Below are positions 24,457 to 40,447 of a stretch of DNA of 64,000 bases, piece after piece. The translations under genes were made by a program, and so were the position numbers. The stretch is from Salinilacihabitans rarus. GTDB taxonomy: Archaea; Halobacteriota; Halobacteria; Halobacteriales; Natrialbaceae. The stretch lies in NCBI RefSeq assembly GCF_024296665.1, contig NZ_CP100762.1:62001-126000 (forward strand), written 5' to 3'. The notes beneath the pieces are model-generated. The model had not been told where the DNA came from. It worked only from the letters and a program-made list of their open reading frames with translations, and did not search any database. Each line of letters starts with the position of its first letter. Position 1 is the stretch's first letter.

Positions 24457-24835
24457 TGACTTCCCTCAAACCCTCTCCCTTCAAAAAATTCATCCACGGA
24501 TTACCACATCTGATAATTATACGTGTCATGCGATCTGTCAGTGGGGACAAAACCCGCGACGGTTCGGCGTTCGTCTCAATCATTTGACCACCCTTCACGA
24601 GGTTCGACCCATCGTTTTTGGCCACAGGCTTTTTATTTTACGGAATAATATATCCATAGCGACATTATTGGCTCGAAGACGTATCCCCGGTCACGACGCC
24701 GGTTCGAACCGGCGACTCGCGGGCGGTCGGCGCCCGGGCGGGACGTGCGGCTGACGGGATTCGAACCGCGGCCACGGCGGCGCTCCCTTTCGAACCTCGC
24801 ACGATCCGTCGTCGGCTTCGCTGTCGCGCGCGCGA
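24457..24835. other. Upstream region of the pil operon, with palindrome and tRNA-3'-end-like fragment
   Basis: No gene. The first 230 bases are AT-rich, with TTTTTTGAA on the minus strand about 30 nt before the ATPase ATG and a second AT-rich block (CTTTTTATTTTACGG, ATAATATATCC) at 24626-24660; these are likely promoter or regulatory DNA. The composition then turns GC-rich. An 18-bp perfect palindrome lies at 24697-24714. A sequence resembling a tRNA T-loop and acceptor 3' strand (minus strand, TTCGAATCCCGT then CAGCCGC) lies at about 24746-24767. No complete tRNA cloverleaf can be folded here. Confidence 0.5.
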
Positions 24836-24860
24836 GAACGGGCGTGGCGGGATTCGAACC
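24836..24860 (-). repeat. Left attachment site (att) of the tRNA-Arg element
   Basis: This 25-bp segment is identical to 40076-40100. It contains the T-loop, T-stem 3' strand and acceptor 3' strand of the tRNA-Arg gene plus 4 bases past its 3' end (CGTTC side). Identity ends exactly at the T-arm, so this copy is a truncated tRNA end. Such duplication is the classic mark left by a tyrosine recombinase integrating into a tRNA 3' end. The recombinase gene begins 240 bp away. Confidence 0.88.
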
Positions 24861-24862
24861 AC

Positions 24863-24901
24863 CGGAAGAGAATCTGCAACAAAGTTGCAGAACCTCTTCC
24901 G
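24863..24901. repeat. Long hairpin adjoining the left att site
   Basis: Two stacked 8-bp perfect arms: CGGAAGAG (24863-24870) pairs with CTCTTCCG (24894-24901), and TCTGCAAC (24873-24880) pairs with GTTGCAGA (24884-24891). A 2+2 internal loop separates the arms, and an AAA loop closes the hairpin. It begins 2 bp from the att repeat and lies upstream of the integrase. It may be a recombinase or accessory-protein binding site, or a cruciform or RNA structure. There is no T-run, so it is not an obvious terminator. Confidence 0.75.
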
Positions 24902-25100
24902 TACCTCGCGCTCGCGTCGCTCGCGCTCACCCGCGATCAGACCCAGTTCCGGGCTGCTCGGCGCGGCGCGCCTGCGCTGCCGGGCTCCTGCCGCGGTGGG
25001 AACCTCCGGCGACCACCGCCACGTGGACACGCCGGCCCGGCCACTGTACCGCCGCCTGTGCGGACGTGGCCCGCGTGCGTCTCCCTCGAGACCAGAGCCT

Positions 25101-26123
25101 ATGCCACCGAACCCAGACCTTGACCCGATCGATCCCAACTCGGCCGTCGACATGTATCTCGCCGATCGCGAACCGACCGTCGCCCAAAGCACCCTCTATG
25201 CCCATCGCTCCCGGCTCGGCCACTTCCTGCGGTGGTGCGAGGCCGAGGCGATCGAGACGATCGCCGACCTCACCGGGCGCGAGCTCCACGCCTATCGGCT
25301 GTGGCGCCGCGAGGACGGCGACCTGAATCGCGTCTCCGAGAAGACGCAGATGGACACGCTGCGCGTGTTCATCCGCTGGTGCGAGCAACTCGGGTTCGCC
25401 AGTCCTGACCTCCACCTCGCCGTCCAGAGCCCGACGCTCGACCCCGGCGATAACACACGCGAGGTGCTGCTCGACGCTGAGCGCGCGACGGCGATCCTCG
25501 ACTATCTCGCGACGTACCACTACGCCTCGCTCGACCACGTCGTCCTCGTGCTGTTCTGGCGGTGCGGCCTCCGGCTTGGCGCGCTCCACGCGCTCGACGT
25601 CGACGACTACGACCCGATCGAGCAGTCGCTCGCAGTCGTGCATCGGCCGGAGACGGCGACGCCGCTGAAAAACAAGCACGAAGGCGAGCGGTACGTCGCG
25701 TTGAGCGACGCCACACGCCGCGTTCTCGACGACTGGGTCGGCGACCGCCGGCCGGACGTGACCGACGAGCACGGCCGGGAGCCGCTGTGTGCGACGACTC
25801 GTGGCCGCGCCTACAAGTCGTACCTCCGCAAGTTCGTCTATCGCTGGACGCGCCCCTGCGTCGTCACCGGCGAGTGTCCCCACGGGCGGACGATCGACGA
25901 CTGCGACGCCGTCAGTGACGAGGCGGCGTTCCGCTGTCCGTCGTCGGTCTCACCGCACGCGATCCGCCGCGGGGCGATCACGCACTGGCTCAAAGCCGAC
26001 TGGCCGACGCGAGCGGTCGGTGACCGGGCGAACGTCTCGCCGGACGTCCTCGAGGCGCACTACGACCAGCGCTCGGCGCAGGAGAAGATGGAGCAACGCC
26101 GCCGGTACCTCGATAACATCTAA
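25101..26123 (+). CDS. Tyrosine recombinase/integrase (XerC/D-like)
   Basis: 340 residues starting at ATG 25101. The frame is open back to 24885 but that part is Arg/Pro-rich and crosses the att hairpin. An N-terminal core-binding SAM-like domain (~12-100: DMYLADREPTVAQSTLYAHRSRLGHFLRWC) precedes the catalytic domain. Catalytic residues: Arg in CGLRLGALHAL, Lys region NKHEGERYVAL, His-x-x-Arg in SPHAIRRGAITHWL, and the Tyr nucleophile in LEAHYDQRS near the C-terminus. It probably integrates and excises the surrounding element at tRNA-Arg. The catalytic set is complete, so it may still be active. Confidence 0.93.
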   Translation: MPPNPDLDPIDPNSAVDMYLADREPTVAQSTLYAHRSRLGHFLRWCEAEAIETIADLTGRELHAYRLWRREDGDLNRVSEKTQMDTLRVFIRWCEQLGFASPDLHLAVQSPTLDPGDNTREVLLDAERATAILDYLATYHYASLDHVVLVLFWRCGLRLGALHALDVDDYDPIEQSLAVVHRPETATPLKNKHEGERYVALSDATRRVLDDWVGDRRPDVTDEHGREPLCATTRGRAYKSYLRKFVYRWTRPCVVTGECPHGRTIDDCDAVSDEAAFRCPSSVSPHAIRRGAITHWLKADWPTRAVGDRANVSPDVLEAHYDQRSAQEKMEQRRRYLDNI

Positions 26124-26465
26124 GTGGCATACCCGGAACTTTCCAAATGAATGTACAATATAGAGGGCGAAAAAGTCGCGTAACACGAGCAATCCTAACA
26201 GTTATAGTGGCCAATCTGCTTTCCTGAGGCAATCATGTAGGAAACGAGTAGACAGCCCGCCCACCGGGCTGCCAACAACACTGAGTAGTGGTACAGTGCA
26301 GGAACTCGTGACGGAGTTCCGCTTCGAGATTGGAGGTCGAGCCTCTTTAGCATTGAGGAAATCGAACTCCATCTCGGGCGGACTCGAACGTCGGGTTCCT
26401 CGGACGGCACCGCCGTGCCGGAGCAACGGCTACTGATTCCACCGAATCATCAACAGACCAATACA
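26124..26465. other. Hairpin-rich leader between integrase and replication genes
   Basis: No convincing gene. Five stem-loops occur within ~200 bp: TTCCT/AGGAA (26220-26242), CAGCCCG/CGGGCTG (26253-26271), GGAACTC/GAGTTCC (26301-26320), a long bulged stem at 26326-26375, and CGGCAC/GTGCCG (26405-26420). The DNA from 26130 to 26225 is AT-rich. The position just before a replication gene fits an origin of replication or an untranslated structured RNA. Confidence 0.6.
26326..26375. ncRNA. Candidate structured RNA or DNA hairpin
   Basis: Successive pairings are GAGAT/ATCTC, GGAG/CTCC, TCGA/TCGA and CCTC/GAGG, with single-base bulges and a 9-nt loop TTTAGCATT. On the outside, CCGC (26319-26322) can pair with GCGG (26378-26381), competing with the preceding hairpin. 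Competition of this kind is known in regulatory RNAs, but expression is not shown and it could equally be an origin structure. Confidence 0.4.
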
Positions 26466-26669
26466 ATGACGAACAACGAGATAGATCTACAAAAGTACCA
26501 GCCAACCGACGCCCGATGTCGGACCGTCACACTCACCCGTGTGGCACAGTCCAGAGGAGAGAGCAACGACCGCGCCAAGGACGGCGTGGCGGACACGCCG
26601 CCCGCTTTCAAGGAGGCGCCAGCTACCGAGCGCCCACCCATCGGCCAGCGGCCGGGCGATAAGAAATGA
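26466..26669 (+). CDS. Small protein translationally coupled to the primase gene
   Basis: 67 residues from ATG 26466 (MTNNEIDLQKYQPTDARC). Its stop overlaps the primase start (ATGA at 26666-26669), which argues that it is translated. No domain or membrane segment is recognisable; the C-terminal half is polar and Pro-rich (TPPAFKEAPATERPP), probably disordered. It may be a replication accessory peptide or simply a leader that drives primase translation. An ATG at 26415 in frame is possible, but lies inside a hairpin. Confidence 0.6.
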   Translation: MTNNEIDLQKYQPTDARCRTVTLTRVAQSRGESNDRAKDGVADTPPAFKEAPATERPPIGQRPGDKK

Positions 26670-29665
26670 GCGGTCAGGACGACGACGCGGCATCACCCCC
26701 TTCGATCGACGAGCTCGTCGAAGCGCTTCCGGATCTGCAGGCGTATATCGAGAATCCTGCTCACGGCCAGCACACGACCGATCTCGTCGCCGTCGGGGAC
26801 GAGTATCGCGGCGCCCATCCCGTCCACGGCTCGACGAACGCCGACGAGAGCGGGCCGGCGGCGGGCAACTTCGCGGTTAACCCGGCCAAAGGCGTCTGGT
26901 ACTGTCACCGCTGTGGTGCCGGTGGCGACCTCCTCAACTACATCGCAGTCGACGAGGGGCTCGTCGACTGCGCGCATGCCGACGACCTCGCCGACGTCTT
27001 CCCGCTCGTGCTCGATCTCGCCACCGAAGCAGCGGGAATCGCGGATCGGATGTCGGGCGCGGATCGGCGCGAACTGGCCGCCAGACGCCACGAACGAGCG
27101 GCGATCACCGAGGTGCACACGGCGGCCTGTACGTTCTACCGTCAGCACCTCGATGAGCCCCGCCCGGACGAGCCCACCGAGACGTGGGCGGCGTACGTCC
27201 GCAACCGGTGGGGACTCAGCGCGGCGATCCTCGACGAGGCGGGCATCGGCTACGCCCCCCGCGAGCCGCGCGCACTGGTCGACTACCTCCGCGCGGAGGG
27301 CTTCGAGGACCACCTGCTCCGTCAGTCGGGGCTGGTCAGCGAGAACGACGAGGGCGAGCTCGTCGACTACTTCGACGGGCGGCTCATCTTCCCCTACCGG
27401 GTGCGCGGCGCACCGCGCTACTTCATCGGGCGGCGGACCCCACAGACGCCCGGCCGGACCCCCTCGAAGTATCGAAAGCTCCGGAATCCGGACCCGGACG
27501 GCACCGGGCCGACCGCGTGCGTCACCGAACCGGTCTTCGGCCTCGATACCGCACGGTCCGCGGAGCACGTCGTCGTCACCGAAGGCGTCACAGACGCCCT
27601 CGCGCTCCACGACGCCGGTTTCGCCGCGATCGCGCCTGTTGGGACGGCCTTCGGCGAGGACCGCCTCAAGACGGCCGCACGGGCGCTCAGCGGCAAACGG
27701 GTGACGGTCGTCATGGACGAAGACGAAGTGTCCGGGGCCGGCCTCCGCGCCGCACTGACGACCGCCACGGACCTCGCCGAGACGGGCCACCCGCGCGAGG
27801 TGCGGGTCGGCCGACTCACGGCCGCCGACGGGGTGACCCAGCAGACGATCGACGTGGCCGAGTTCTACCGCGACTACGATGCAGCCGCGTTCGCGCAGGT
27901 GCTCGACGCCGCCCTGCCTGTCAACCACGCCCGCTACTGCTGGGGCGAGACCGCGGGCGATCCGAGCTACCTGTTCGCGGCCGCCGTCGAGGCCGCCGAT
28001 CACGACCCGACGGCGGTCGCGAGCCGGACGGACGACGAGGGGACGGAGAGCCTACTCGGGGTCGATGACATCATCGACGGCGACGAACTCCCGACGGCCC
28101 AGCGTGAGTTCCATCGCCGAAGCGACCTCTCGGGAAAGGACGTGCGCGACATCTTCGAGCACGCGATCCGGATCGACCTCGAGGCGAACGGGTCGTTCAT
28201 CCGGTCGGACGACGGCCGACTCTGGTACTTCTTCGATCCGGAACACCGGCTCTATCCGATCGACGCGTCGGGCCAGCAGGAGATCCACGACGAGTTCCAC
28301 GGGCTGATCAAAGCGCGGTTCGGCCTCTCGATGGACCAGTGGTCGCGGGGGCTCTTCAAGGACATCCGGATTCACGGCCGCCGGATCGCCGCGCGCCGCG
28401 CCGTCCACCAGTTCGCCTGCTACAACGCAGAGGCGGGCGAACTGTACGTCAGCGACTTCGACGACGGCTACTACGTGGTCGACGGGAGCGACGAGGCGCC
28501 CGAGCATCGGCCGAACGGGACGGACGTCCTCTTCCGCGACGAGCGCGGGGAGCCGTGGACGTACGTCCCACCCGCGGCGCGCCCGGAGCCCGACGGGGAC
28601 ATTCCGGGCGAGCGCTCGCCGTGGGCGGGCGAGGGCGATCTCCTCCACCGCTACGTGACGAACCGCGTGAACTTCGGCGACGCCGTCCTGACGCCGGCCC
28701 AGCAACGGCTACAGCTCTACCTGCACCTGCACATCATCCCGCTGACGTCGCTCCTCTCGGCGCGGCCGATCCTCGCGTGGGTCGGCCCGAAGGGCAGCGG
28801 CAAGACGGTCACCCAGCGGATGATCGGCCGGCTGTTCTACGGGCCGTCGTTCAAAGAGACGGTGATGCCCGACGAGAAGAAGGACTTCTACGCCGTCCTC
28901 GCGAACCGGCCGCTGACGTTCATCGACAACTACGACGACGGCCGTCGGTGGGCGAACGACGTGCTGGCCGCGGTGGCGACCGGCGCGAAGCTGGAACTGC
29001 GCAAGCTCTACTCGACGGTCGACCTCGCCTCGTACGATCCGCAGTGCTGGCTGTCGCTCACCTCGCGCGACCCGCCGTTCCGGCGCGACGACGTCGCCGA
29101 GCGGATGCTCGTGTTCAACCTCGAGCGGATCGCGACCGGCACGGCCGACTTCGTCGGTACGACGCCGTTCCTCGAGGTGGTCGACGAGGCCCGCGAGCCA
29201 CTGCTCTCCGCGCTCCTCGACAACGTCAACGCCGTCCTCCGGGTCTACCACGACACGGAGCGCGCGGCGTTACGGTCGCAGCACCGGATGGCCGACTGGG
29301 CGGCCTGCGCACACCTCTGTGCGGAGGCACTCGACCTCGACGGCGTCGACGCCCTCCTCGAGGCGATGGGGGGCGAGCGCGCGGCGTTCGTCCTCGAAGA
29401 CGATCCGCTCCGGCCTGCACTCGACCACTACCTCGAGACGCAGCCCAAGTGCGCCACTCGCTTCCACTCGACGACTAAGCTGTACGATGTGCTAGCAGAA
29501 GCGGCGGCCAGCACGGACCATACGTTCGACTACGCGGACGCGCGCCATCTCGGGCGGCGACTCAAAAAGATCCGCGAGGAGTTACACCAACTCTACGGCA
29601 TGGAGGTCGACACCTCGGGGCGCGCACCCCAGTATCGCTTCCCGACGGCACGCGACGACGAGTAA
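26666..29665 (+). CDS. DnaG-like (TOPRIM) primase fused to a P-loop helicase domain
   Basis: 999 residues. Residues ~48-90 form a CHC2-like zinc finger: HPVH (51-54), then NPAKGVWYCHRCGAGGD; the first ligand is His instead of Cys. The TOPRIM fold carries VVVTEGVTDALALHDAG (~302-318, catalytic Glu) and VVMDEDEVSG (~347-356, DxD). A linker leads to a C-terminal ATPase with Walker A GPKGSGKT (~708-715) and a following TFIDNYDDGRRW Asp box. It should prime and unwind DNA for replication of the element. Archaeal chromosomes use a different, AEP-type primase for replication, so a bacterial/phage-like primase marks mobile DNA. Confidence 0.88.
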   Translation: MSGQDDDAASPPSIDELVEALPDLQAYIENPAHGQHTTDLVAVGDEYRGAHPVHGSTNADESGPAAGNFAVNPAKGVWYCHRCGAGGDLLNYIAVDEGLVDCAHADDLADVFPLVLDLATEAAGIADRMSGADRRELAARRHERAAITEVHTAACTFYRQHLDEPRPDEPTETWAAYVRNRWGLSAAILDEAGIGYAPREPRALVDYLRAEGFEDHLLRQSGLVSENDEGELVDYFDGRLIFPYRVRGAPRYFIGRRTPQTPGRTPSKYRKLRNPDPDGTGPTACVTEPVFGLDTARSAEHVVVTEGVTDALALHDAGFAAIAPVGTAFGEDRLKTAARALSGKRVTVVMDEDEVSGAGLRAALTTATDLAETGHPREVRVGRLTAADGVTQQTIDVAEFYRDYDAAAFAQVLDAALPVNHARYCWGETAGDPSYLFAAAVEAADHDPTAVASRTDDEGTESLLGVDDIIDGDELPTAQREFHRRSDLSGKDVRDIFEHAIRIDLEANGSFIRSDDGRLWYFFDPEHRLYPIDASGQQEIHDEFHGLIKARFGLSMDQWSRGLFKDIRIHGRRIAARRAVHQFACYNAEAGELYVSDFDDGYYVVDGSDEAPEHRPNGTDVLFRDERGEPWTYVPPAARPEPDGDIPGERSPWAGEGDLLHRYVTNRVNFGDAVLTPAQQRLQLYLHLHIIPLTSLLSARPILAWVGPKGSGKTVTQRMIGRLFYGPSFKETVMPDEKKDFYAVLANRPLTFIDNYDDGRRWANDVLAAVATGAKLELRKLYSTVDLASYDPQCWLSLTSRDPPFRRDDVAERMLVFNLERIATGTADFVGTTPFLEVVDEAREPLLSALLDNVNAVLRVYHDTERAALRSQHRMADWAACAHLCAEALDLDGVDALLEAMGGERAAFVLEDDPLRPALDHYLETQPKCATRFHSTTKLYDVLAEAAASTDHTFDYADARHLGRRLKKIREELHQLYGMEVDTSGRAPQYRFPTARDDE

Positions 29666-31173
29666 CCCGTCCCGTCGACGCCGGCTGCTCGCTTTCGTAA
29701 TGGTGAGGCCGTGTCGGAGTGGCGAGGCCGTGTCGTCGTTAGCCGCACACCACCTCGACGCAAAAAGTGGCAGCCGGGACCGAGGGACACGAACCGGGGC
29801 ATCAATACTGGTTCTCCCGAGCGCACGCACGCGCACGCGGGGAATCGGCCACCACCCCGTGAGAGCATGTTGCTCGTCCACGGCTGTCGATTTTTGGGTC
29901 GACCGACCTCATTGAGTTCGTCGAATGAGCGCCGTCCGAGACGCATCGGACTCGCACCCGGGCTAACACACCATCGGGCGCCACCAGCAAGAGCGCAGCA
30001 GCCCTTCGCCGAGATGAAGGGTCCGTCGAGCGAGATCGGGAGCTGCGGACAGAGACCCCGTTCGTCCGCGAGTCGCACCGGGAGAAGCTCTCACAACCGA
30101 CCCCACTCTCGGAGCACGCTCCAGAGGTGAGTCGGCGCCAGTCGAGTCGTCGACCTGTCGAAGTGGGTCGGAAGTTGCTTGTACTATTATCCAATCGCCT
30201 TGATCAGCGCCCATACGACGAGCGGACGCACGCGTTTGGGACCTCGTCCACCCCGAAACTCCAGTTGCTGGCCCGGACACGATACGGGCTGACCCCATCC
30301 GGCCGTGGCACTACGATGCGGGAGCGCGATCGGCGCGCGTGGGCGGCTGCGACGACCCTCTCCGATCACGCCGTCGTCGCCTCCTTTTATCCCTTGGAGC
30401 CGCGACTCGAAGCGCGGCTGCCCATACAGGCTCGTTCACGCCCTCACAGCGGTCACGGCCGCACGCCGGGCCGGCGACCCACCGACGGCTGGGGCTGACG
30501 CCGATGCGGATGGCCCGCCCGCGACGCGACGCCGCCCACGACGCGATACCGCTCGTGAACCGGCGGCACGCCGCTCTCTACTGGGCGACTGCCCCGTCGG
30601 TACGGTCACCCCGGCGGTGATGCCGCCCGCTACCACCCCGGACCGCGCCTGCGCGGCTGCTAACTGGCTTGCTACGCCCTGCACCACGCCCCGTTGCTGC
30701 CCCGCCGCGGTGGCAGTCCGTCGGACCCGGCCGCGACGACGAGTGGTCGGGGGACACCCTCGCGGTGCGGAATAACGTCGGCGAACCGATAGCCATGCCC
30801 GCAACATCGGCGAGCCGCCAGCGACGATCACCGCGACGACCCCCGAGGCGTGCCGCCCAGCGGCGCTCACCCCCGCCCGCGGCTGCTTCCGACGCCGAGT
30901 GCGGCCCGACGCGTTCAACGCCCTCTCGGCCGTGGCTGCGCCGGTGGTGGTCCCACACCGACGACCACCCTCCGGCGCCCGCTCGACGCCGCGAGAAGAG
31001 TAGTCAGGCCGGCGACCCGCATCCGGTGTAGCGACGCGCGTCCGCCGAGTCGGTCGCTCTCCCCGTACCGGCACGTGGCGCTGTCCGTCCGTCTCCGCCG
31101 CTGTGCGGCCCGTGATGCGGTCGGGCCCGCCGCGAGGGTAGTGTGACGGCGCGCCGCCCGACCCGCGTGCGAC
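29666..31173. other. Gene-poor tract inside the element
   Basis: About 1.5 kb with no frame showing the acidic residue composition seen in real genes of this window; open frames here are Arg/Pro/Ser-rich and conflict on both strands. Small features: a 12-bp direct repeat (29705-29716 and 29724-29735) just after the primase gene, and a CTCATT/AATGAG stem-loop at 29908-29929. It may be decayed coding DNA, or regulatory or replication DNA of the element. I see no transposase remnant. Confidence 0.5.
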
Positions 31174-31445
31174 ATGGATGACGGCCCGCATAGCGGGGCC
31201 GCGAGCGGAGGTGAGGTCGACGGCACAGCGCCTCGGCGATCGCCGCCGCCCTCGACAGCGCGGACAGCACCGCGTACGAGTACACCGAGCAGGAGATCCA
31301 CGACGAGTTCCACGGCTACAGTCGCGTGCCCACCGACCACGGCGGGTGGCGGGCGAAAGCGTACCGCTATCTTGCCCAGAAACGGACGCTCGAACGGCAG
31401 TGGGCCGAGCGTGACGGGGCCGTGGAGGCCACCACACCGGCGTAG
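31174..31445 (+). pseudogene. Frameshifted small gene remnant
   Basis: The ATG at 31174 opens MDDGPHSGAASGGEVDGTA, which then degenerates to Arg/Pro-rich sequence. From about 31230 the coding-like frame continues one register away, SAIAAALDSADSTAYEYTEQ through HDEFHGYSRVPTDHGGWRAK to a TAG at 31443-31445. Both halves have haloarchaeal composition and together would give a ~90-residue protein, so a single frameshift is likely. A 28-bp stretch at 31288-31315, in the same codon phase, is identical to 28275-28302 in the primase gene. No function recognised. Confidence 0.55.
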
Positions 31446-31671
31446 CGCCGCCTCACCGAGTTGTAGCCGGCGGTCGCAGATGCGACTGGAAGCCGGTGAC
31501 GCCCGCCCTGTTGGCCCGAGAGCCGCGTCAGTGTTGCCACGACCATCCAGTCGGGTTCGGCCGGTGGGCCACGGTCGCAGGTCGCCATCGATCGAAGGGT
31601 GGTCGCCCATCGACGGCCGGCCACACCGATAGGCGTGGGATTTATCCGGCTAAACGGCCACTACGCGGTAA

Positions 31672-34600
31672 ATGAGTGAGCGACCAGCGCCGCCCGGCGC
31701 AACCTTCTGGGCGGAGACGAGCGACGACGTCGCGCGCCAGCGGTACGAGACGCTCGTGAACGTGGTCGACGACGGCATCTACCAGCTCGACGCCGCCGGC
31801 CGGTTCGAAGCCGTCAACGACGTCATCCTCGAGCAGACGGGCTACGACCGCGAGGCCCTCCTCGGCGAACACGTCTCGCTCGTCCTCGCCGCCGCCGACA
31901 TCGAGCAGATCCAGCGCGAGATCCGCCGGCGACTCACGACCGGCGAGCGGCAGGTCGAGACGTTCGAGTTTCCCGTACGGACGGCCGAAGGGGCGACGAT
32001 CGACTGCGAGTTGCGCTTCAGCCTGCTCGTCGAAGCCGGCACGTTCCGGGGGACCGTCGGCATCGCCCGCGATATCACCGACCGCAAGCGTACCGAGCGG
32101 ACGCTCGCCGCGCGCGAGCAACAACTCCAACGCGAACGCGACCTGACCGAGCGCATTCTCGACACCGCGCCGATCGGCATCCAAGTACTTGATGCCGACG
32201 GCGAGATCACGCGGCTGAACGAGCGCGCGCGGGAGCTCCTCGACATCGCAGAGCCGCAAGCGTACGCCCCGTCCGATCGGACCGTCTACGACGAGGACGG
32301 CCGCGAACTCGCGGTCGACGAGCACCCGTTCGCGCAGGTGCTCGCGACGGGCGAGCCAGTGGCCGACCGGATACTCGAGATCGACCGCCCGGACGGTGAC
32401 TCGCGGTGGCTGTCGGTCAACGCCGCGCCCATCCTGACCGCCGATGGCGCGGTCGACCGCGTGGTCACCACCGGCGAGGACGTCACCGCCCTCAAAGAGC
32501 ACGCGCGCGACCTCGAGCGCCGAACGGACGCGTTGGCGGCGGAACTCGCGGAGGTCTACGGCCGGATCACCGACGGCGTCATCGCCGTCAACGAGGCGTG
32601 GGAGTTCACCTACGCCAACGAGCGCGCCGCGACGGCTCTTGGCCTCGACACCGCGGAGTTCCTCGGCGAGACGCTCTGGGAGGCCGTTCCCGACGTGGTC
32701 GACACGGTGTTCGAAGAGCGCTTCCGCGAGGCGATGGCCACCCAAGAGCCGGTCGGCGTCGACGCGTACTACGCGCCGGCCGACAAATGGTTCGACGCGC
32801 AAGCGTACCCGTCGGCGACGGGGCTGTCGATCTACGTCCGCGACGTCACCGAGCGCGCGGCGGCCAAACGCGAGATCGAGGCAACCAACCGCACGCTCCA
32901 GCAGTTGTACGCGATCAGCGCCGACCGCGAGCAGTCGTTCGACGAGAAGGTCACCCGGATGCTCGCCCTCGGCCGGGAGCGCCTCGGCGTCGAAACCGGC
33001 TATCTGGCGACCGTCGACGAAGCCGAGGATTCTTTCGAGGTCACCCACGCCAGCAGCGACGACCCGCGCGTCCAGCCCGGCTTGGTCGCGCCGCTGTCGG
33101 AGACCTACTGCCGGACGACCGTCGAGACCGAGGGGTTGCTCGCGTTCACCGACGCCCCGACTGACGCGGGGATCGACGACGAGAGCTACGAGACCTTGGG
33201 CCTCGAGTGTTATATCGGCGGGTCGGTGATCGTCGACGGCGAGCTATACGGCACGCTCTGTTTCGAAGACGCGTCCCCGCGGGCAGCGTCGTTCACGCCG
33301 GCCGAGCGGACGTTCGTCGAACTCGTCACGCAGTGGGTCAGCTACGAACTCGAGCGGACCCAGCGCCGGCGCACCCTCGAACAGTACACCGAGTACACTG
33401 ACGCGATTCTGGACGCCGTCGACGACCTCTTCTACGTCCTCGATACGGACGGACGGCTCCGGCGGTGGAACGAGAGTCTCGCCGCGGTGACGGGCTACAC
33501 ACACGCTGCCATCGAGTCGATGCACGCGCTCGACTTCTTCGACGAGTCCGCACACGAGGCGATCACGACCGCGATCGCCGACGGGCTCGAGACCGGTCGG
33601 ACGCGCGTCGAAGCCGCGTTGCAGACCGCGGACGGCGCCACGATCCCCTACGAGTTCGTCGCGACCACGCTCACCGCTCCCGACGGCGAGCCCCGGCTGG
33701 CCGGGATCGGCCGCGACATCACCGAGCGCAAGCGCCGCGACCGCGAACTGGCGAAGTACGAAGCGATCGTCGAAACGAGTAACGACGGCATCTACGTCGC
33801 GGACGATGCGCTGGAGTACACGATGGTCAACGACGCCTACGCCGCGTTGACCGGCTACGACCGCGACGAGTTGCTGGGCACGCACGCCTCGCGCGTCGTC
33901 GCGGACGAGACGCTCGAGCGCGCGGCCGAGTTGCGGGAGGCGATGGCCACCGAGGCGGTGGCGAAGCCGACCATCGAGGGGACGATCGAGACGGCCGACG
34001 GCGAGCGCGTCCCCGTCGAGGTGACGTTCTCGACCGTTTCGAGCGACGGCACCGCCGAACGCGTCGGTATCGTTCGCGACATCACCGTGCGCAAAGAACA
34101 ACGCCGACAGCTCGAGGCGAGCGAGCGCCGGTACCGGACGCTCGTCGAGCACTTCCCGAACGGCGCGGTCGCCCTCTTCGACGACGACTTCCGCTATACG
34201 GCCGTCGGCGGGCAACTACTGGACGCCATGGGCGTCGCCCCTGACGACCGCGTCGGCACCAGCGTCTACGACATCTACCCGGACGACATTGTCGACGAGG
34301 TCGAACCGTACTTCACCGCCGCCCTCGCGGGCGAGGCCACCTCGTTCGACGTCGAGTATCGCGACCGCCACCTCTTGGCGTACACGCTCCCCATCCGCGA
34401 CGCCGGCGACGAAATCTACGCCGGGATGCTCGTCGTCCAGAACATCACCGACCTCAAGGAGACCCAGCGCCGCCTCGAGGAATCCAACGAACGACTGCAG
34501 CAGTTCGCCTACGCGGCCAGCCACGACCTGCAGGAGCCGCTGCGGATGGTCTCGAGCTACCTCCAGTTGATCGAGCAACGGTATGGCGACGCCCTCGACG

Positions 34601-35160
34601 CGGATGGCCACGAATTCCTCGCGTTCGCCGTCGACGGCGCCGAGCGGATGCGCGCGATGATCGACGGCCTGCTCGAGTACTCCCGGGTCGAAACGCAGGG
34701 CGAGCCGTTCGAACCGGTCGCTCTCGAGGATGTCGTCGAGGAGGCCCGCGCGAATCTCCACGTGCGGATCGCCGAGACCGACGCTCGGATCGAGGTGGCG
34801 GACCTGCCCGTCGTCGAGGGTGACCCGCGGCAACTTCGCCAACTGTTCCAAAACTTGTTGAGTAACGCGATCGAGTACAGCGGCGACGAGCCCCCACAGG
34901 TACACGTCGCGGCCGAGCGCGACGGTGACGAGTGGACCGTCTCGGTGCGCGACGAGGGGATCGGGATCGATCCGGACGAGCACGACCGCATCTTCGAGGT
35001 CTTCCAGCGGTTGCACAGTCGCGACGAGCATCCGGGGACGGGCATCGGGCTCGCGCTCTGCCAACGAATTGTCGAGCGCCACGGGGGCGAGATCCGCGTC
35101 GACTCCGAGCCCGGCGAGGGCACCACGTTCGCGGTGACGCTCCCGGCAGCGAGCGAGTAG
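31672..35160 (+). CDS. Soluble multi-PAS/GAF sensor histidine kinase
   Basis: 1162 residues from ATG 31672. Domain order: PAS (~22-145), PAS (~150-275), PAS (~290-405), GAF (~410-565, with LGRERLGVETGYLATVDE and GGSVIVDGELYGTLCFED), PAS (~572-690), PAS (~695-815), PAS (~820-930), HisKA with the phospho-acceptor His in AYAASHDLQEPLR (~951), and HATPase_c (~1045-1158) with N box NLLSNAIEYS and G boxes DEGIGIDP and GTGIGLAL. No membrane segment, so it senses cytoplasmic cues such as redox, light or small ligands through PAS-bound cofactors. No response regulator is adjacent. As element cargo it may rewire host signalling. Confidence 0.93.
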   Translation: MSERPAPPGATFWAETSDDVARQRYETLVNVVDDGIYQLDAAGRFEAVNDVILEQTGYDREALLGEHVSLVLAAADIEQIQREIRRRLTTGERQVETFEFPVRTAEGATIDCELRFSLLVEAGTFRGTVGIARDITDRKRTERTLAAREQQLQRERDLTERILDTAPIGIQVLDADGEITRLNERARELLDIAEPQAYAPSDRTVYDEDGRELAVDEHPFAQVLATGEPVADRILEIDRPDGDSRWLSVNAAPILTADGAVDRVVTTGEDVTALKEHARDLERRTDALAAELAEVYGRITDGVIAVNEAWEFTYANERAATALGLDTAEFLGETLWEAVPDVVDTVFEERFREAMATQEPVGVDAYYAPADKWFDAQAYPSATGLSIYVRDVTERAAAKREIEATNRTLQQLYAISADREQSFDEKVTRMLALGRERLGVETGYLATVDEAEDSFEVTHASSDDPRVQPGLVAPLSETYCRTTVETEGLLAFTDAPTDAGIDDESYETLGLECYIGGSVIVDGELYGTLCFEDASPRAASFTPAERTFVELVTQWVSYELERTQRRRTLEQYTEYTDAILDAVDDLFYVLDTDGRLRRWNESLAAVTGYTHAAIESMHALDFFDESAHEAITTAIADGLETGRTRVEAALQTADGATIPYEFVATTLTAPDGEPRLAGIGRDITERKRRDRELAKYEAIVETSNDGIYVADDALEYTMVNDAYAALTGYDRDELLGTHASRVVADETLERAAELREAMATEAVAKPTIEGTIETADGERVPVEVTFSTVSSDGTAERVGIVRDITVRKEQRRQLEASERRYRTLVEHFPNGAVALFDDDFRYTAVGGQLLDAMGVAPDDRVGTSVYDIYPDDIVDEVEPYFTAALAGEATSFDVEYRDRHLLAYTLPIRDAGDEIYAGMLVVQNITDLKETQRRLEESNERLQQFAYAASHDLQEPLRMVSSYLQLIEQRYGDALDADGHEFLAFAVDGAERMRAMIDGLLEYSRVETQGEPFEPVALEDVVEEARANLHVRIAETDARIEVADLPVVEGDPRQLRQLFQNLLSNAIEYSGDEPPQVHVAAERDGDEWTVSVRDEGIGIDPDEHDRIFEVFQRLHSRDEHPGTGIGLALCQRIVERHGGEIRVDSEPGEGTTFAVTLPAASE

Positions 35161-36047
35161 CGGGGGAGACTCGCTGGCGCAGGACGCTGCCCAGACGCGG
35201 TTTCGTGAGCGAGCGCGGTCGCCGGCGAAAACTACCCCCTCCGCGAACTCGGGGGTGGGTCGCGCTGAGCACTATTGGGGCCCCGCGCCCTCGACTTTCC
35301 CCGAATTTTTCGCGCTCGGCTGGCTGCCTACTGGACAGCCGTCTGATACTTTGTGAGTGTGGATGGGCGACGGGTAAGAGTTTTAGCAAGCGCGGCGGTC
35401 ACACCCGCAACTCGGCCGGGTTCCACAACCGACGATGGTGGGTCGACGCAATTCCCGGTACGAGCGGCGAGTAGTGTCGCGACGGCGGCGAACGGCGTGT
35501 GCGACCGGCCGATAGTACCCGTTGTAGTGGGGGCTATCCGCCGATTCTACGCGAGATAGCCGCTCTACCGGTCATCGCTGCCCCGCCCGTCGAGCCGGCG
35601 TGAGTGCGCGAGCGGCCGCCCGAGTGCCGCCGGGCGACCGGCCACTCGCCTCGGTCACCGGCCACATACCCCCGGACGCGCCCGACTCCGAACCGCGCGC
35701 AGCGAGTCGCCCAGAGGGCCGTGCATTCGCCCGGCCCCTGACCGGCCCTCGAACCGGTCTCGCGTCGAACCGATCCGACCGGAGCGTGGCCACGACTACC
35801 CAGTGGCCGATGGGGAACCGTCGCGCAGTCGCCCGTGCGAGTCGTCGGGGACTGCCATCGACGCCAAGACGCCCACCGTCGCCGAGACGACGCCGATGCC
35901 TCGCGTACGAGACCGCTCTGCCCCGGTCCGCACGGTTGTGGCGATGTGGCGCCGTCATATTCCGTCGGCTGAGACTCATTCGTGCCAGCTATATTTTGGA
36001 CCGAATTATCCAGTAATATATTGTGGCATGGTAGCATCGGACAGCGT
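35161..36047. other. Gene-poor spacer downstream of the kinase
   Basis: About 890 bp without a supportable gene. Open frames on both strands are basic and Pro-rich. The last 70 bases become AT-rich (TATATTTTGG at ~35990-35999 and AATATATTG near 36015-36023), which is a plausible promoter for the following exported protein. One minus-strand stretch (~35960-35800) encodes a short Val/Ala-rich peptide (GVVSATVGVLASMAVPDD) that might be a remnant, but I could not support it as a gene. Confidence 0.5.
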
Positions 36048-37034
36048 ATGCAGCGCCGTCACTATCTCCGGAGGGTTGGCGCGAGCGTCGGGGGTGGCGT
36101 CGCGGTCGGCGGGGTAGAACGGGTCGCAGCCCAGTCGGCCGGGTTCGTCGTCGCGATCGAGGAGGTGTTCGATCCCGTCCGCGCTGGCGACGTCCTCGTA
36201 GTGCGCACCGGCGTCGAGAACACCGCTATGGGGATGGACGAGCAGGTGATCCGCCTCGTCGTGAGCGACGAAGTCGTCGACACCGAGTCGGTGCCGGTCC
36301 CGGGAGGCGAACCCTATCCCGTCCCGGTCGAACTCGCGTACGAGACGTATCCGGTCGAGGAGGACGTCGAGTTCCCCGTGCGCGTCGAGTGCGACGACGA
36401 CGCGGACGAGCAGCGCGTCGCGGTCGTCACCGAAGCCGACGGCGAGCTCGTCCCCGTGATCGATCAGACGAACGCGCCGGTCAAGGCTGGCGACGTCCTG
36501 CGTATGCGGGGCCACATCGGGAATACCGGCCGGGTCACGCAGACGCAGGACGTACGCCTCGTCGTCGGCGACGAGACGGTCGACAGCGAGCCGATGACCG
36601 TCCCACGACCGCACGAATACGGCGTCACTCTCTCGTACGAGACGTATCCGGTCGAGCAGGACGTCGAGTTTCCCGTTCGGGTGGAGACCGAGGACGACGC
36701 CGCCCAGACCGCCGTGCGGGTGTTGGCCGACGTCGATCTCACGTTCGACGTGCGGATCGACCGCACGAACGCACCGGTAAACGCGGGCGACGTCCTCGAG
36801 GTGGAGGCGACCGTCACCAACACGGGCGGCGTCGCGGGGGCGCAGGAGGTCCGCCTCGTCGTCGGTGGCGAGACCGTCGACCGCGAGACCGTCGAGATCC
36901 CTGCGGGGTTCAGCAACGTCGTCTGGCTCGGCTACGAGACGTACCCGGTCGAGCAGACCGTCGAGTTCCCCGTCCGCGTGGAGACGGCCGGCGGGGCCGA
37001 CGAGCGCGTCGTCACCGTCTACGGCGTCGGTTGA
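36048..37034 (+). CDS. Tat-exported protein with three CARDB/Ig-like repeats
   Basis: 328 residues from ATG 36048. The N-terminus has a twin-Arg motif (RRHYLRRVG, residues 3-11) and a weak hydrophobic stretch ending near AAQSA. Three tandem beta-sandwich repeats follow at ~36-127, 136-225 and 234-325. Each contains AGDVL near its start, a central RLVV.(D/G)E and a closing YETYPVE..VEFPVRVE. The fold looks like CARDB-type adhesion modules and the repeats clearly arose by duplication. There is no C-terminal anchor, so it is probably secreted or held by another protein. Function unknown; surface binding is an inference. Confidence 0.8.
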   Translation: MQRRHYLRRVGASVGGGVAVGGVERVAAQSAGFVVAIEEVFDPVRAGDVLVVRTGVENTAMGMDEQVIRLVVSDEVVDTESVPVPGGEPYPVPVELAYETYPVEEDVEFPVRVECDDDADEQRVAVVTEADGELVPVIDQTNAPVKAGDVLRMRGHIGNTGRVTQTQDVRLVVGDETVDSEPMTVPRPHEYGVTLSYETYPVEQDVEFPVRVETEDDAAQTAVRVLADVDLTFDVRIDRTNAPVNAGDVLEVEATVTNTGGVAGAQEVRLVVGGETVDRETVEIPAGFSNVVWLGYETYPVEQTVEFPVRVETAGGADERVVTVYGVG

Positions 37035-37057
37035 CGGGGCTGACCAACTCGTCTGGG

Positions 37058-37840
37058 CTACAGCAAGAACCGCGTCTCGAAGTGGTCAGCCATCTCTTGG
37101 ACGAACGTCCGATAGTGGACGCGTTCGCCGGGCTGGGGTGCGGGCTCGCGAGTGACCAGCTCGGTCTCGCCAATGTCCTCGGGCAGGTTCGTGTGGTCGA
37201 CGACGATAAGGCCAGCACCGTCGAGATTGGCCGAGATTTCGCCCTCGCTTCTGTCGATGGAGTCGAACAAGTCGACGATCTCCTCGATGATACGCTCGAT
37301 GTTAGCGTGTTCGGTAATATCGTCTGGATCTCGCGTCGGCGAGTCGAACCGTTCGGCGATGTTCAATAATAGAATGCCGCAGGTGAGTGCCTGCTCGTGA
37401 TGAGTATGCATGATATCGGCGAAGCTGTTGATGTCGCGCTGGCGGTTCCGCCGGGCTTTCTGGTGTTCTGTGACGATGCTTTTGGCATCGCAGGCGAGCC
37501 AGACCTCGCCCGGGGTATCCTTCGCCATTCCGCCGCCCAAGGGCGGCTGTACGTCGCCCGCAGGCGGGCCGAGCACGAGGTCGACGTTCCACCCTAACCC
37601 TCTCGGGTCACCGACGTCGTAGTCCTCGGCGTAGACGATCTCGCCGTTTTGCGCCGCCGCCTCGATGGCCTTGCTCTCGTGGATGAGGTCATCGACGAAG
37701 TATCGGCACTGCGCGCCGCCATGCTTGTCCGATCGGGGATGATACGGGGCGTCCTTCGGGTAGTTCCACTCACGCGGCTGGTTCAGCCACTCGACAATCC
37801 GTTCATCGCCAAATGTATGACCAGTCTCGGCTTTCGACAT
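37058..37840 (-). CDS. Putative type II restriction endonuclease (PD-(D/E)XK-like)
   Basis: 260 residues from ATG 37840. It lies directly downstream of a DNA methyltransferase on the same strand. A candidate nuclease core is present: VDLVLGPPAGD (Asp), then after ~28 residues EVWLACDAKSI (D-x-K), followed by the basic helix EHQKARRNRQRD. The sequence otherwise matches no family I recognise. Gene order and motif suggest it cuts the site protected by the methyltransferase. A hairpin and an inverted repeat occupy the gap to the methyltransferase gene. Specificity unknown. Confidence 0.68.
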   Translation of the reverse strand: MSKAETGHTFGDERIVEWLNQPREWNYPKDAPYHPRSDKHGGAQCRYFVDDLIHESKAIEAAAQNGEIVYAEDYDVGDPRGLGWNVDLVLGPPAGDVQPPLGGGMAKDTPGEVWLACDAKSIVTEHQKARRNRQRDINSFADIMHTHHEQALTCGILLLNIAERFDSPTRDPDDITEHANIERIIEEIVDLFDSIDRSEGEISANLDGAGLIVVDHTNLPEDIGETELVTREPAPQPGERVHYRTFVQEMADHFETRFLL

Positions 37841-37843
37841 ATA

Positions 37844-37860
37844 CCGCGAGTTCCTCGCGG
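37844..37860. repeat. Hairpin just upstream of the restriction gene start
   Basis: Perfect 7-bp arms CCGCGAG and CTCGCGG with a TTC loop, 3 bp before the ATG at 37840 on the minus strand. In mRNA this would mask the translation start, which could delay or limit endonuclease synthesis. This is an inference from position. Confidence 0.55.
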
Positions 37861-37887
37861 GTGAATCTTAATACTACGCGAATAAGC

Positions 37888-37902
37888 AATCTACAGTAGA
37901 TT
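37888..37902. promoter_or_regulatory. Operator-like inverted repeat between methyltransferase and restriction genes
   Basis: Perfect 15-bp inverted repeat AATCTAC-A-GTAGATT in an AT-rich spacer (37865-37920) which also holds TATA-like sequence on the minus strand (AGTATTAAG at ~37867-37875). Many restriction-modification systems place a controller-protein site here, but no controller gene is visible. It may be bound by a host regulator or by the methyltransferase. Confidence 0.5.
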
Positions 37903-37968
37903 CCAAAACAATTATGAATCTCCGTTGACGGTCGATGGCACCTACAGCGCCCGGTCTGCGCGACCAGC

Positions 37969-38961
37969 CTACCGCTCAACCGACACCGACAAGTTCTGGA
38001 TGTTCGTCAGCGTCCCACGTTCGTTCTGAATCCGCGCCTCTGCGATGTCTACGTATTCGGGTTCAAGTTCGACCCCTACGCTGTTACGTCCGCAGCGACT
38101 GGCGGCGACCGCCGTCGAGCCCGTCCCCGCGAACGGGTCGAGGATAGTGTCGCCGACGAAACTGAACATCCGAATGAGCCGCTCGGCGAGGTCCGCCGGG
38201 TACGGCGCAGGGTGGTCGCGCTGACGTTCGCCCGTAATATCGTCCCAGAGCTGCCGAAACATCCGCTGGTGTTCGTCCGCCTCGATGGTCGACAAAATGC
38301 GTTCGGCCGTGTTCGGCGAGCGGTAGCCGCCGTTCTGCTTGCGGAACAGGAGAATATACTCGATATCGTTTTTGACGACCGCCCCGGGCTCGTAGGGCTT
38401 ACCGAGGAACCGAGCGTTTCCGCCGGCCTCGAGGGACGCATTTCCGATCTTGTACCAGATGATCGGCGCGAGGTTGTCGAAACCGAGGTTGGTCGCGTGC
38501 TCTTGAATCGTGGCGTGAAGGGGGATGACGCGGTGACGGCCGTGTTCGCTCCGCGAGCGGAGGACGTCGCCGACGACGACGCACAGTCGGCCCCCCGGCC
38601 GGAGAACCCGTTCACACTCCGCCCACACCTCGTCGAGGAGCGTAATGAATCGCTCGTAGTCGTCGATGTCGCCGAGCTGGCCGTCCTCGGGCGTCTCGTA
38701 GTCTTTGAGGTTGAAGTAGGGAGGAGAAGTAACGGCGAGGTCGACGGACTCGTCGTCGAGCCGTGTGAGGACGTCCCGACTGTCACCCTCGTACAGGTCA
38801 TGATGGCTGGGAAGTTGCTGGACGGCCTGTTCGACGTCGCCCATCCGCCCCTCGTCTCGGGCGAGTGCCGGGATTTCGGACTTCAGTTCGTTGTCGCTCA
38901 TCTCCAGTAGGTCTCGGCAAGACTCGGGGACGTATGCTTCGAGATCCACGTGGTCAGGCAT
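37969..38961 (-). CDS. Site-specific DNA methyltransferase (beta-class, TSPPY type)
   Basis: 330 residues from ATG 38961. The catalytic motif IV TSPPYFNLKDY (~79-89) precedes the AdoMet-binding motif I DPFAGTGSTA (~277-286), the order of beta-class amino-methyltransferases. TSPPY is most often seen in N4-cytosine enzymes, though N6-adenine cannot be excluded. Other conserved pieces are PGGRLCVVVGD and FLGKPYEPGAVVKNDIEYILLFRK. It modifies DNA using AdoMet. Together with the downstream nuclease candidate it forms a restriction-modification unit carried by the element. Confidence 0.9.
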   Translation of the reverse strand: MPDHVDLEAYVPESCRDLLEMSDNELKSEIPALARDEGRMGDVEQAVQQLPSHHDLYEGDSRDVLTRLDDESVDLAVTSPPYFNLKDYETPEDGQLGDIDDYERFITLLDEVWAECERVLRPGGRLCVVVGDVLRSRSEHGRHRVIPLHATIQEHATNLGFDNLAPIIWYKIGNASLEAGGNARFLGKPYEPGAVVKNDIEYILLFRKQNGGYRSPNTAERILSTIEADEHQRMFRQLWDDITGERQRDHPAPYPADLAERLIRMFSFVGDTILDPFAGTGSTAVAASRCGRNSVGVELEPEYVDIAEARIQNERGTLTNIQNLSVSVER

Positions 38962-39135
38962 TGGTCTGACGATGACACCGTCGACTTATAGACCTTCAGT
39001 ATTGGTTGTACTACACTACGATGGCGGTTACACGTCGGCCAGACGGTCATCCCCTACGAGATCGACTGGGTCGAGGACCGCGAGACGATCGGCCTCGCGC
39101 TGGATCAGTCGCTCGAGCTGACGGTCCGCGCGCCC

Positions 39136-39753
39136 ATGTCGGCTACGCTCGCCGACGTCGAGGACGTTCTCGAGAGCCGGCGTGAGTGGCTCCTCGAGAA
39201 GCTCTACGGACTCGCCGAGCAAGCGGAGCCGCCGTACCCGAAAGAGTTCTTGAGCGGCGAGAAACTCCCGTATCGTGGCCGTGAGTACCACCTCGACGTC
39301 GTTGAGGCCGACGTCCCGGAGCCCCACCTATCGTTCGACGGCACCGAGTTCACGCTATGCGTCCACGGGCGCGACGCGGCCGCCGATCACGTGAGCGTCC
39401 GTCGGAAGCGGCAGGCGGTCGTCGACTGGTACGTCCGCCGCGCCGCCGCCGAACTCCCCGCCCGCAGTCCGCGGTTCGAATCGCAGTTGGGCCTCGCGGA
39501 CGTGTCGATCGAGATTGAGGTCGGCACGCTCGACGGCCGCTGGGGCGAGTACGACGACGGCATCGTCCGCCTCCATTGGCGGCTGCTACTCGCGCCGGTC
39601 CGAATACACGCCTACGTGCTCGTCCACGAGCTGGCCCACGCCGTCCACGACGACCACTCCGACGCCTTCTGGAACACGGTGGGGACGGTGATCCCCGACT
39701 ATGAGGATAGTCGCGAGTGGCTGCGACTGAACGGGAATACGCTGAGGATTTAG
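39136..39753 (+). CDS. YgjP-like (DUF45) metallopeptidase, possibly N-terminally frameshifted
   Basis: 205 residues from ATG 39136. The zinc site HELAHAVHDDHSDAFW (HExxH plus a downstream His) is intact, followed by IPDYEDSREWLRLNG. Members of this family frequently travel with restriction-modification genes, as here. The coding-like sequence continues in frame upstream (residues VGQTVIPYEIDWVEDRETIG, encoded from about 39034), but that frame contains no start codon before a TAG at 38989. An ATG at 39021 lies one register off. The full-length protein therefore seems to have lost its start by a small indel, or uses the internal ATG. Confidence 0.8.
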   Translation: MSATLADVEDVLESRREWLLEKLYGLAEQAEPPYPKEFLSGEKLPYRGREYHLDVVEADVPEPHLSFDGTEFTLCVHGRDAAADHVSVRRKRQAVVDWYVRRAAAELPARSPRFESQLGLADVSIEIEVGTLDGRWGEYDDGIVRLHWRLLLAPVRIHAYVLVHELAHAVHDDHSDAFWNTVGTVIPDYEDSREWLRLNGNTLRI

Positions 39754-40075
39754 CCTTCGACATCGTGTCTACCCGCCGCCATCGGTCCGAACGGACGGTC
39801 GCGCTGCTACCCCGCTTCGAAGCCGCCGCCTGTCGGCGCGAGCGATGAGCGGGTGCGGCCTCGTCGACGTGGTGCGTCGCGGGTACTCGGGGGGCGACGA
39901 TAGGTTGCTGTGCGTGAGAAGCAGTTATGACGGTGCTCGTGGTCGTTGACTCTCGAGGGATTCGCACGACGGGCCCGACCCGCGGTCGGCCGCGGGTCGA
40001 ACTGTTGGCGCCCGCGGTGGCGGACTGGTAAAAGGGACGCGGCGCCGCCCCTTGGATTCCAACCGCTCGAAGAAC
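39754..40075. other. Right end of the element, no gene seen
   Basis: About 320 bp between the metallopeptidase stop and the right att repeat. No frame is convincing. A GC-rich inverted motif (AAGGG ... CCCTT) lies around 40031-40053, just past the tRNA 3' end, and could end the tRNA transcript. No transposase or other element gene is seen. Confidence 0.45.
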
Positions 40076-40100
40076 GAACGGGCGTGGCGGGATTCGAACC
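40076..40100 (-). repeat. Right attachment site (att), within the tRNA-Arg 3' end
   Basis: Exact 25-bp copy of 24836-24860. It covers tRNA-Arg positions from the T-loop to the 3' end plus four bases beyond. Because the complete tRNA lies on this side, integration restored the tRNA here and left the partial copy on the far side. Confidence 0.88.
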
Positions 40101-40151
40101 CGCGATCAGAAGGTTAGGAACCTCCTGCCCTATCCGCTAGGCCACACGCCC
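40080..40151 (-). tRNA. tRNA-Arg (anticodon CCT)
   Basis: A 72-nt cloverleaf on the minus strand: acceptor GGGCGTG/CACGCCC, D arm GCCTAGCGGATAGGGC, anticodon stem GGAGG/CCTTC with loop TTCCTAA (anticodon CCT), a 5-nt variable loop TGATC, and T arm GCGGG-TTCGAAT-CCCGC. CCA is not encoded. It decodes AGG. It lies 14 bp downstream of tatA and serves as the integration site of the element on its 3' side. Confidence 0.95.
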
Positions 40152-40165
40152 ACGGCCCGAAAAAA

Positions 40166-40447
40166 TCAGTTCGATTCGGTTTCGGTGTCCTCTTCCGAGG
40201 TGACCGGTTCGGTGTCGACGAACTCCTCGTCCTCGTCCTCGTCGTAGTCGCCGGTCTGACGCATCTCCTCGAGTTCGGTTTCGACCTTCTCGCGGCCCTT
40301 CTGGAACTCCCCCATCGCCTCGCCCGTCGAGCGCGCCAACTTCGGGATCTTGTTCGCCCCGAACAGCAAGATGGCGATGAAGAGGATGATCAGGAGTTCC
40401 GGACCCCCGGGCATGGGGGCGAACAGCGGTGCGATTTCGAGTACCAT
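40166..40447 (-). CDS. tatA: Twin-arginine translocase subunit TatA/E
   Basis: 93 residues from ATG 40447 (MVLEIAPLFAPMPGG). A short outer part is followed by one membrane helix PELLIILFIAILLFGANKIPKLA with the TatA hinge FGANKIP(K), an amphipathic helix GEAMGEFQKGREKVE, and an acidic disordered tail. It forms the Tat translocation pore for folded proteins. Haloarchaea send most secreted proteins by this route, including the cupredoxin and the repeat protein in this window. tatC genes are not nearby. Confidence 0.93.
   Translation of the reverse strand: MVLEIAPLFAPMPGGPELLIILFIAILLFGANKIPKLARSTGEAMGEFQKGREKVETELEEMRQTGDYDEDEDEEFVDTEPVTSEEDTETESN

Follow-up and report, generated by a model that had tools for sequence, protein, structure and literature searches.

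Cryptic integrated elements were defined for Thaumarchaeota and are stated to occur in other archaea (Krupovic et al., 2019, PMC6563490). They carry an integrase, a replication protein and restriction-modification genes, and their median size is 17 kb. A second point of comparison is provided by the genomic islands GI3/DV11 and DV7 of Haloquadratum walsbyi (PMC3119063), which are inserted between an intact tRNA gene and a 22–43-bp copy of its 3' end, with an integrase nearby and with restriction and replication genes.

The DNA examined here is a 64,000-nt stretch (positions 62,001–126,000) of the 3.62-Mb single-contig genome of Salinilacihabitans rarus. This whole stretch is called the window below, and all coordinates refer to it. 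It contains an insert of 15,265 bp (15.3 kb; 24836–40100) adjoining an intact tRNA-Arg(CCT) gene. We consider it very probable that the insert is a tyrosine-recombinase integrative element of the cryptic integrated type, derived from a circle that recombined at this tRNA gene.

Limits of the element

The insert is bounded by an exact 25-bp direct repeat, the right copy of which consists of the last 23 nt of tRNA-Arg(CCT) and two bases past the tRNA (Table 1). Identity between the two copies breaks off sharply at either side, and by chance alone 21 kb of sequence would be expected to contain about 4e-6 repeats of this kind. An earlier note on this DNA had described an exact repeat at both ends, one copy being the 3' end of an intact tRNA, and the direct repeat and the ARAGORN prediction confirm this.

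Table 1. Features of the integrated element and its ends.
Feature	Position	Strand	Basis or remark
Displaced tRNA-Arg trailer unit, now just outside distal att; beside the tRNA in relatives	24746..24838	-	Model R1
Distal att copy	24836..24860	.	Exact 25-bp direct repeat; 23 nt of tRNA-Arg 3' end plus 2 nt
Integrase-proximal att arm with palindrome CGGAAGAG..CTCTTCCG	24861..24942	.	Sequence
Tyrosine integrase, 340 aa	25101..26123	+	Pfam PF00589, PHROG integrase, catalytic motifs
Small ORF overlapping primase start, coding uncertain	26415..26669	+	ORF only; 84 aa, or 67 aa from internal ATG
DnaG-type TOPRIM primase with P-loop ATPase/helicase-like half, 999 aa	26666..29665	+	Pfam, PDB DnaG matches, motifs, modular relatives
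Decayed or non-coding stretch, ~2 kb	29666..31671	.	Frame scan
Multi-PAS/GAF sensor histidine kinase, 1162 aa	31672..35160	+	Pfam
Repeat protein, three ~99-aa repeats, twin-arginine-like N-terminus	35982..37034	+	297-bp repeats, sequence
Putative type II restriction endonuclease, 260 aa	37058..37840	-	Position beside methyltransferase, D...DAK motif
Type II N6/N4 DNA methyltransferase, 330 aa	37969..38961	-	Pfam PF01555, PADLOC MTase_II
YgjP-like metallopeptidase, 205 aa	39136..39753	+	Pfam PF01863
tRNA-side att copy	40076..40100	.	Exact 25-bp direct repeat overlapping tRNA; regenerates its intact 3' end
tRNA-Arg(CCT), intact, integration target	40078..40152	-	ARAGORN

The palindromic arm next to the distal copy is a likely candidate for an integrase-binding site. 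It also gives a weak match (24.1 bits at 24839–24942) to R1, a model of the tRNA trailer described below. Outside the element, the right flank carries tatA (40166–40447, minus strand), and the left flank carries a gene for a PilB-like ATPase (21181–24456, minus strand) with a PilC-like neighbour. The G+C content of the element does not differ from that of its flanks. Its coding density is 72%.

Empty sites in related genomes

The locus was compared with 61 halobacterial genomes, the nearest of which belong to the same family as S. rarus. PilB is present in 59 of these and the tatA–tRNA-Arg arrangement in 60. Judged by coordinates, at least 14 relatives (G002, G007, G009, G010, G013, G015, G018, G023, G024, G028, G032, G033, G036 and G042) have only 0.3–0.7 kb between PilB and tatA–tRNA-Arg, and these are empty sites; with the insert taken out, the flanks in the window would be 379 bp apart. 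The only element sequence found in the sampled intervals of the relatives is a shared kinase domain, in G021. The earlier note had proposed a search for the empty tRNA-Arg site, which is thus seen in genomes of other genera. As grounds against an element it had named the lack of a junction in relatives and conservation of the cargo in place, and neither was found.

Longer PilB–tRNA intervals were considered as rival elements and rejected. Eight genomes (G004, G008, G017, G019, G021, G022, G027 and G035) carry there a conserved gene pair, by sequence SDR-like and acyl-CoA dehydrogenase-like, and no integrase match falls within any of these eight intervals.

In the relatives, tRNA-Arg is directly followed by a unit of about 100–140 bp, which terminates in a further repeat of the 3' end of the tRNA. 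This trailer is missing beside tRNA-Arg(CCT) in the window, and is found instead at the far end of the insert (R1 match of 40.1 bits, E 4.8e-7, with a local alignment score that beats all shuffles). Because its place is immediately beyond the distal att copy, the element must have entered at the precise boundary of tRNA and trailer, which settles both the junction and the coordinates. The att repeats, the empty sites and the displaced trailer together support the integrated element, with the limits originally suggested for it.

Integrase

The earlier note had also called the recombinase complete. This is borne out by the Pfam and PHROG matches and by the presence of every catalytic motif (R, K, HxxR, H, Y); the catalytic domain is accompanied by a SAM-like N-terminal domain that scores slightly below the Pfam cut-off. 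The gene is unsplit and lies 240 bp inward of the distal repeat. With att upstream of the integrase gene, the layout is the classical, non-suicidal one, in which the gene stays whole after integration.

The nearest integrases are 57–60% identical and occur in other haloarchaea. Where tested, they lie at the tRNA-distal end of tRNA-Arg(TCG) elements with different cargo, which indicates that integrase and cargo are freely exchanged. Minimal elements of this kind, in G011 and G028, share with the present element the closest integrases found and their tRNA-distal position. The G011 element differs in having only 2.5 kb, with two genes besides the integrase (one of them PIN-like by eye) and with neither primase nor restriction pair. 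No relatives of the integrase were found in viral contigs.

Replication protein

The N-terminal half of the large primase contains a CHC2-like zinc ribbon (HPVH...CHRC), a DnaG core and a TOPRIM domain, and is of the bacterial DnaG type. The C-terminal half has a Walker A motif (GPKGSGKT) and a Walker B-like motif (FIDN), as in an AAA+-like ATPase. Profile and motifs thus agree with the earlier description of a primase-helicase, as a DnaG-type primase with a helicase-like ATPase half. Homology suggests that the protein functions in replication. The 84-aa ORF that overlaps its start has no family match in Pfam.

The P-loop half is modular. It recurs at 46% identity in Halapricum hydrolyticum (G274), behind a very different N-terminal half, and in Salinadaptatus halalkaliphilus (G011) as a stand-alone ORF of 505 aa. 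A profile of this half run against 84,980 species genomes found these two species only, a lower bound since the search patterns were narrow. The ATPase module is, on these sequence searches, rare. The full-length primase had no relative in the first scan of genome contigs; in phages and plasmids the DnaG half alone finds matches, at about 30%, and in viral contigs the primase gave a 22-residue match only and the ATPase half none. No sister element with the same gene order was found, both relatives of the ATPase half being ordered differently. A structure prediction for this half (mean pLDDT 38) was too poor for use.

The primase gene is followed by a stretch of about 2 kb in which a frame scan found no plausible acidic frame of the haloarchaeal type, apart from a 76-codon remnant at 31215–31442. 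Together with the coding density, this stretch suggests partial decay. A 28-bp exact repeat (28275/31288) was considered as a trace of a second primase copy and rejected, as the copy at 31.2 kb lies within the short remnant and its flanking residues differ.

Cargo

The histidine kinase, remarked on earlier as very large, is indeed large and confirmed by profile, but its make-up (PAS, GAF, HisKA, HATPase) is ordinary and typical of haloarchaea. The repeat protein, described earlier as Tat-exported, has three repeats and a twin-arginine-like N-terminus; its start MQRRHYLRRVGA, at an internal methionine, is compatible with Tat export. Its family is widespread in Halobacteria (matches in 152 of 381 genomes).

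The proposed restriction-modification pair stands in part. The methyltransferase is identified by profile, but its 260-aa partner has no family match, a search of PDB sequences with its profile was empty, and it is assigned by conserved position and by a conserved D...DAK, which may fit a PD-(D/E)XK nuclease. The two genes are adjacent or a few genes apart in about 10 of 381 haloarchaeal genomes. A plasmid of Haloferacaceae archaeon XH8 also carries them, with identities of 78.7 and 83%, and in G158 they lie next to an integrase. Viral contigs yielded no relatives of the putative endonuclease, and its predicted structure (mean pLDDT 41) was too poor for use.

The YgjP peptidase is confirmed by its Pfam profile. 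YgjP is present in 17 of 61 genomes, including that of S. rarus, and in the other genomes it lies at different places. The S. rarus genome contains a second element, of 12.3 kb in tRNA-Ala(GGC), with the same layout, a YgjP-like gene, and type I restriction-modification genes (the latter named by eye from sequence). Searches of every gene of the tRNA-Arg(CCT) element against Pfam and PHROGs gave no match to a structural, packaging or conjugation gene, which upholds the absence of such genes noted before.

Nature of the element

The element is precisely inserted between att repeats, encodes its own integrase, lacks viral structural or packaging genes and conjugation apparatus, and shares its integrase and restriction pair with other elements and a plasmid. 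Every feature tested fits the cryptic integrated elements, and the element therefore belongs to a known kind. In the Pfam and PHROG searches there was no relaxase or type IV secretion gene, as an integrative and conjugative element would have, and no capsid, terminase or portal gene, as a provirus would have. Like the thaumarchaeal elements (PMC6563490), it combines an integrase, a replication protein of mobile-element type and restriction-modification with a lack of viral and conjugation hallmarks, and its size is near their 17-kb median. The likeness is one of features and extends across phyla, and the replication proteins named for the thaumarchaeal elements are of AEP, MCM or Rep type, whereas that found here is a DnaG-type primase-ATPase fusion. 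The H. walsbyi islands differ in their targets (tRNA-His and tRNA-Ala), in size (52 and 19.7 kb) and in cargo, which includes either Cdc6 and type IV secretion-like genes or a DNA polymerase gene of viral type (PMC3119063). The earlier suggestion that the element is of a kind not yet described holds for the gene combination only, the category having been known since Krupovic et al. (2019, PMC6563490).

Most probably the element arrived as a circle that contained the 25-bp tRNA 3' end and recombined there with tRNA-Arg(CCT). The element's own copy of the 3' end restored the tRNA, and the original trailer was pushed 15 kb away. The integrase could excise the element through the 25-bp core, re-forming attP, and the DnaG-ATPase protein could prime, unwind and replicate or re-prime the circle. 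The restriction-modification pair may stabilise the element or defend the host, while the kinase, the secreted repeat protein and the peptidase may be cargo of benefit to the host. Spread from cell to cell would presumably depend on uptake, mating or the machinery of another element. With about 2 kb decayed, the element may no longer move.

Other origins must be weighed against this one. The element could once have been a larger provirus or integrative plasmid and have decayed, losing the genes for structure or transfer. The 2-kb gene-free stretch, the truncated 76-codon remnant and the low coding density speak for this; but both ends, the integrase and the primase are intact and no vestige of viral or conjugative genes was recognised, so that we regard this as unlikely. 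Much less likely still is a minimal replicon that needs a virus or conjugative element as helper for its packaging or transfer; the earlier note had suggested that the element could be satellite-like. The primase-integrase layout and the 15-kb size do resemble those of phage-inducible islands, and the element has no transfer genes of its own, but it contains no packaging, packaging-interference, capsid-remodelling or relaxase gene, its cargo is large and non-viral, no helper relationship was found, and viral contigs contain no relatives of its integrase, primase ATPase or endonuclease.

That the region is simply chromosomal, lying between repeats made by chance or by recombination, can for practical purposes be set aside. 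Its G+C content and coding style are host-like, and families such as those of the histidine kinase and the repeat protein are common in haloarchaea, but this reading is contradicted by the empty sites in relatives and by the displaced trailer, the integrase at one end, and the very small number of such repeats expected by chance.

Trailer units behind tRNA genes

Halobacterial tRNA genes are often trailed by between one and three units, each about 100–130 bp long and each ending in a copy of the 3' end of the tRNA in question. Among 41 tRNA genes scanned in S. rarus, the final 21 bases of the gene recur 102–127 bp downstream in eight cases, exactly in seven and with one mismatch in the other; none of the 41 has such a copy upstream. 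The unit interiors are alike across tRNAs and genera: identity between the Arg-CCG unit of S. rarus and the G008 Arg-CCT unit is 86%, and for each unit compared with its nearest neighbour the score beats all shuffles. The last part of the unit self-pairs through an inverted T-arm (GGGATTCGAA...TTCGAATCCC).

The trailer-unit model has matches in 57 of the 61 halobacterial genomes, up to 43 in one of them, counts that are soft for weak matches since the model includes a tRNA-like 3' end. Strong matches in S. rarus lie at nine tRNA genes. Twelve places matched by the model were fetched, and 11 of them lie directly behind a tRNA, in most cases with exact copies and frequently as tandem units. The remaining place, in G020, is on the outer side of the att of a different integrated element, whose target, as judged by the core sequence, is tRNA-Arg(TCT); the geometry is the same as that of the displaced trailer in the S. 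rarus window.

These units may be att scars, CIME-like mini-elements moved in trans, maintained integration pads, or trailers with a function at the RNA level. A CIME is a cis-mobilizable att-flanked element that lacks an integrase and is moved in trans; the units are flanked by tRNA 3'-end copies and lie in tandem. Between genera, Arg-CCT units are for the most part mutual nearest neighbours, which suits vertical descent. It is possible, although we would not favour it, that the units are mini-elements mobilised by integrases, or att landing pads that are maintained. On this reading each would have a 3'-end copy of its own tRNA and an arm-like hairpin, and the units would accumulate as tandem arrays and pass from one tRNA gene or genus to another. 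The literature searched, which covered few subscription journals, contained no published description of the units, and the family may be new.

Implications

The S. rarus element adds a well-delimited haloarchaeal case to the cryptic integrated elements. It has a rare DnaG-ATPase replication protein, the ATPase half of which is swapped among different primase types. If the trailer units are mobile, or are kept as integration pads, they would be directly relevant to the question of how a tRNA gene withstands one integration after another.

tRNA trailer units

Many halobacterial tRNA genes are directly followed by a unit of about 100–130 bp, the terminal part of which is a copy of the 3' end of its own tRNA. 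The interior is conserved between different tRNAs and between genera, and a tandem arrangement is often seen. Using R1, our model of the unit, trailer units were found in 57 of 61 genomes. No earlier description of them was met in the literature searched.

Location of the features discussed; L numbers are loci in the own genome or in the compared genomes
Feature	Locus	Position
Trailer unit	window	24746-24838
Trailer units, own genome	L156, L165, L170, L173, L179, L182, L186, L188, L194	
Trailer units, further loci	L207-L218	
tRNA-Ala(GGC) element, own genome	L197	2086-14396 (G000:C1 about 3494085-3506395)
tRNA-Arg(TCG) element, G011	L084	7427-9912
ATPase half, G274	L115	829-3507
ATPase half, G011	L081	158-1675
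28-bp repeat	window	28275-28302; 31288-31315
Integrase and restriction pair, G158	L148	5300-10133

Integrated elements and their genes

The genome itself carries a second integrated element (12.3 kb, target tRNA-Ala(GGC)). Its integrase is at the distal end, and it also contains a YgjP-like gene as well as genes for type I restriction-modification. On contig 9 of genome G011, tRNA-Arg(TCG) carries a 2.5-kb element. It holds an integrase (60% to that of the window) and two further genes, one for a protein of 222 aa and one, PIN-like, for a protein of 181 aa; both also accompany the integrase in G028 (L085).

The ATPase half of the window's primase stands alone in G011, and in G274 follows a different, primase-polymerase-like N-terminal half. 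Different primase types are swapped on a single ATPase. Within the window, an exact 28-bp repeat encoding QEIHDEFHG has one copy in the primase, while the other falls in a gene remnant of 76 codons.

In G158, an integrase is adjoined by homologues of the window's methyltransferase and endonuclease (87 and 81%); three genes separate these two homologues, and two of the three are ParB-like by eye. This arrangement suggests that the pair forms a mobile restriction module.
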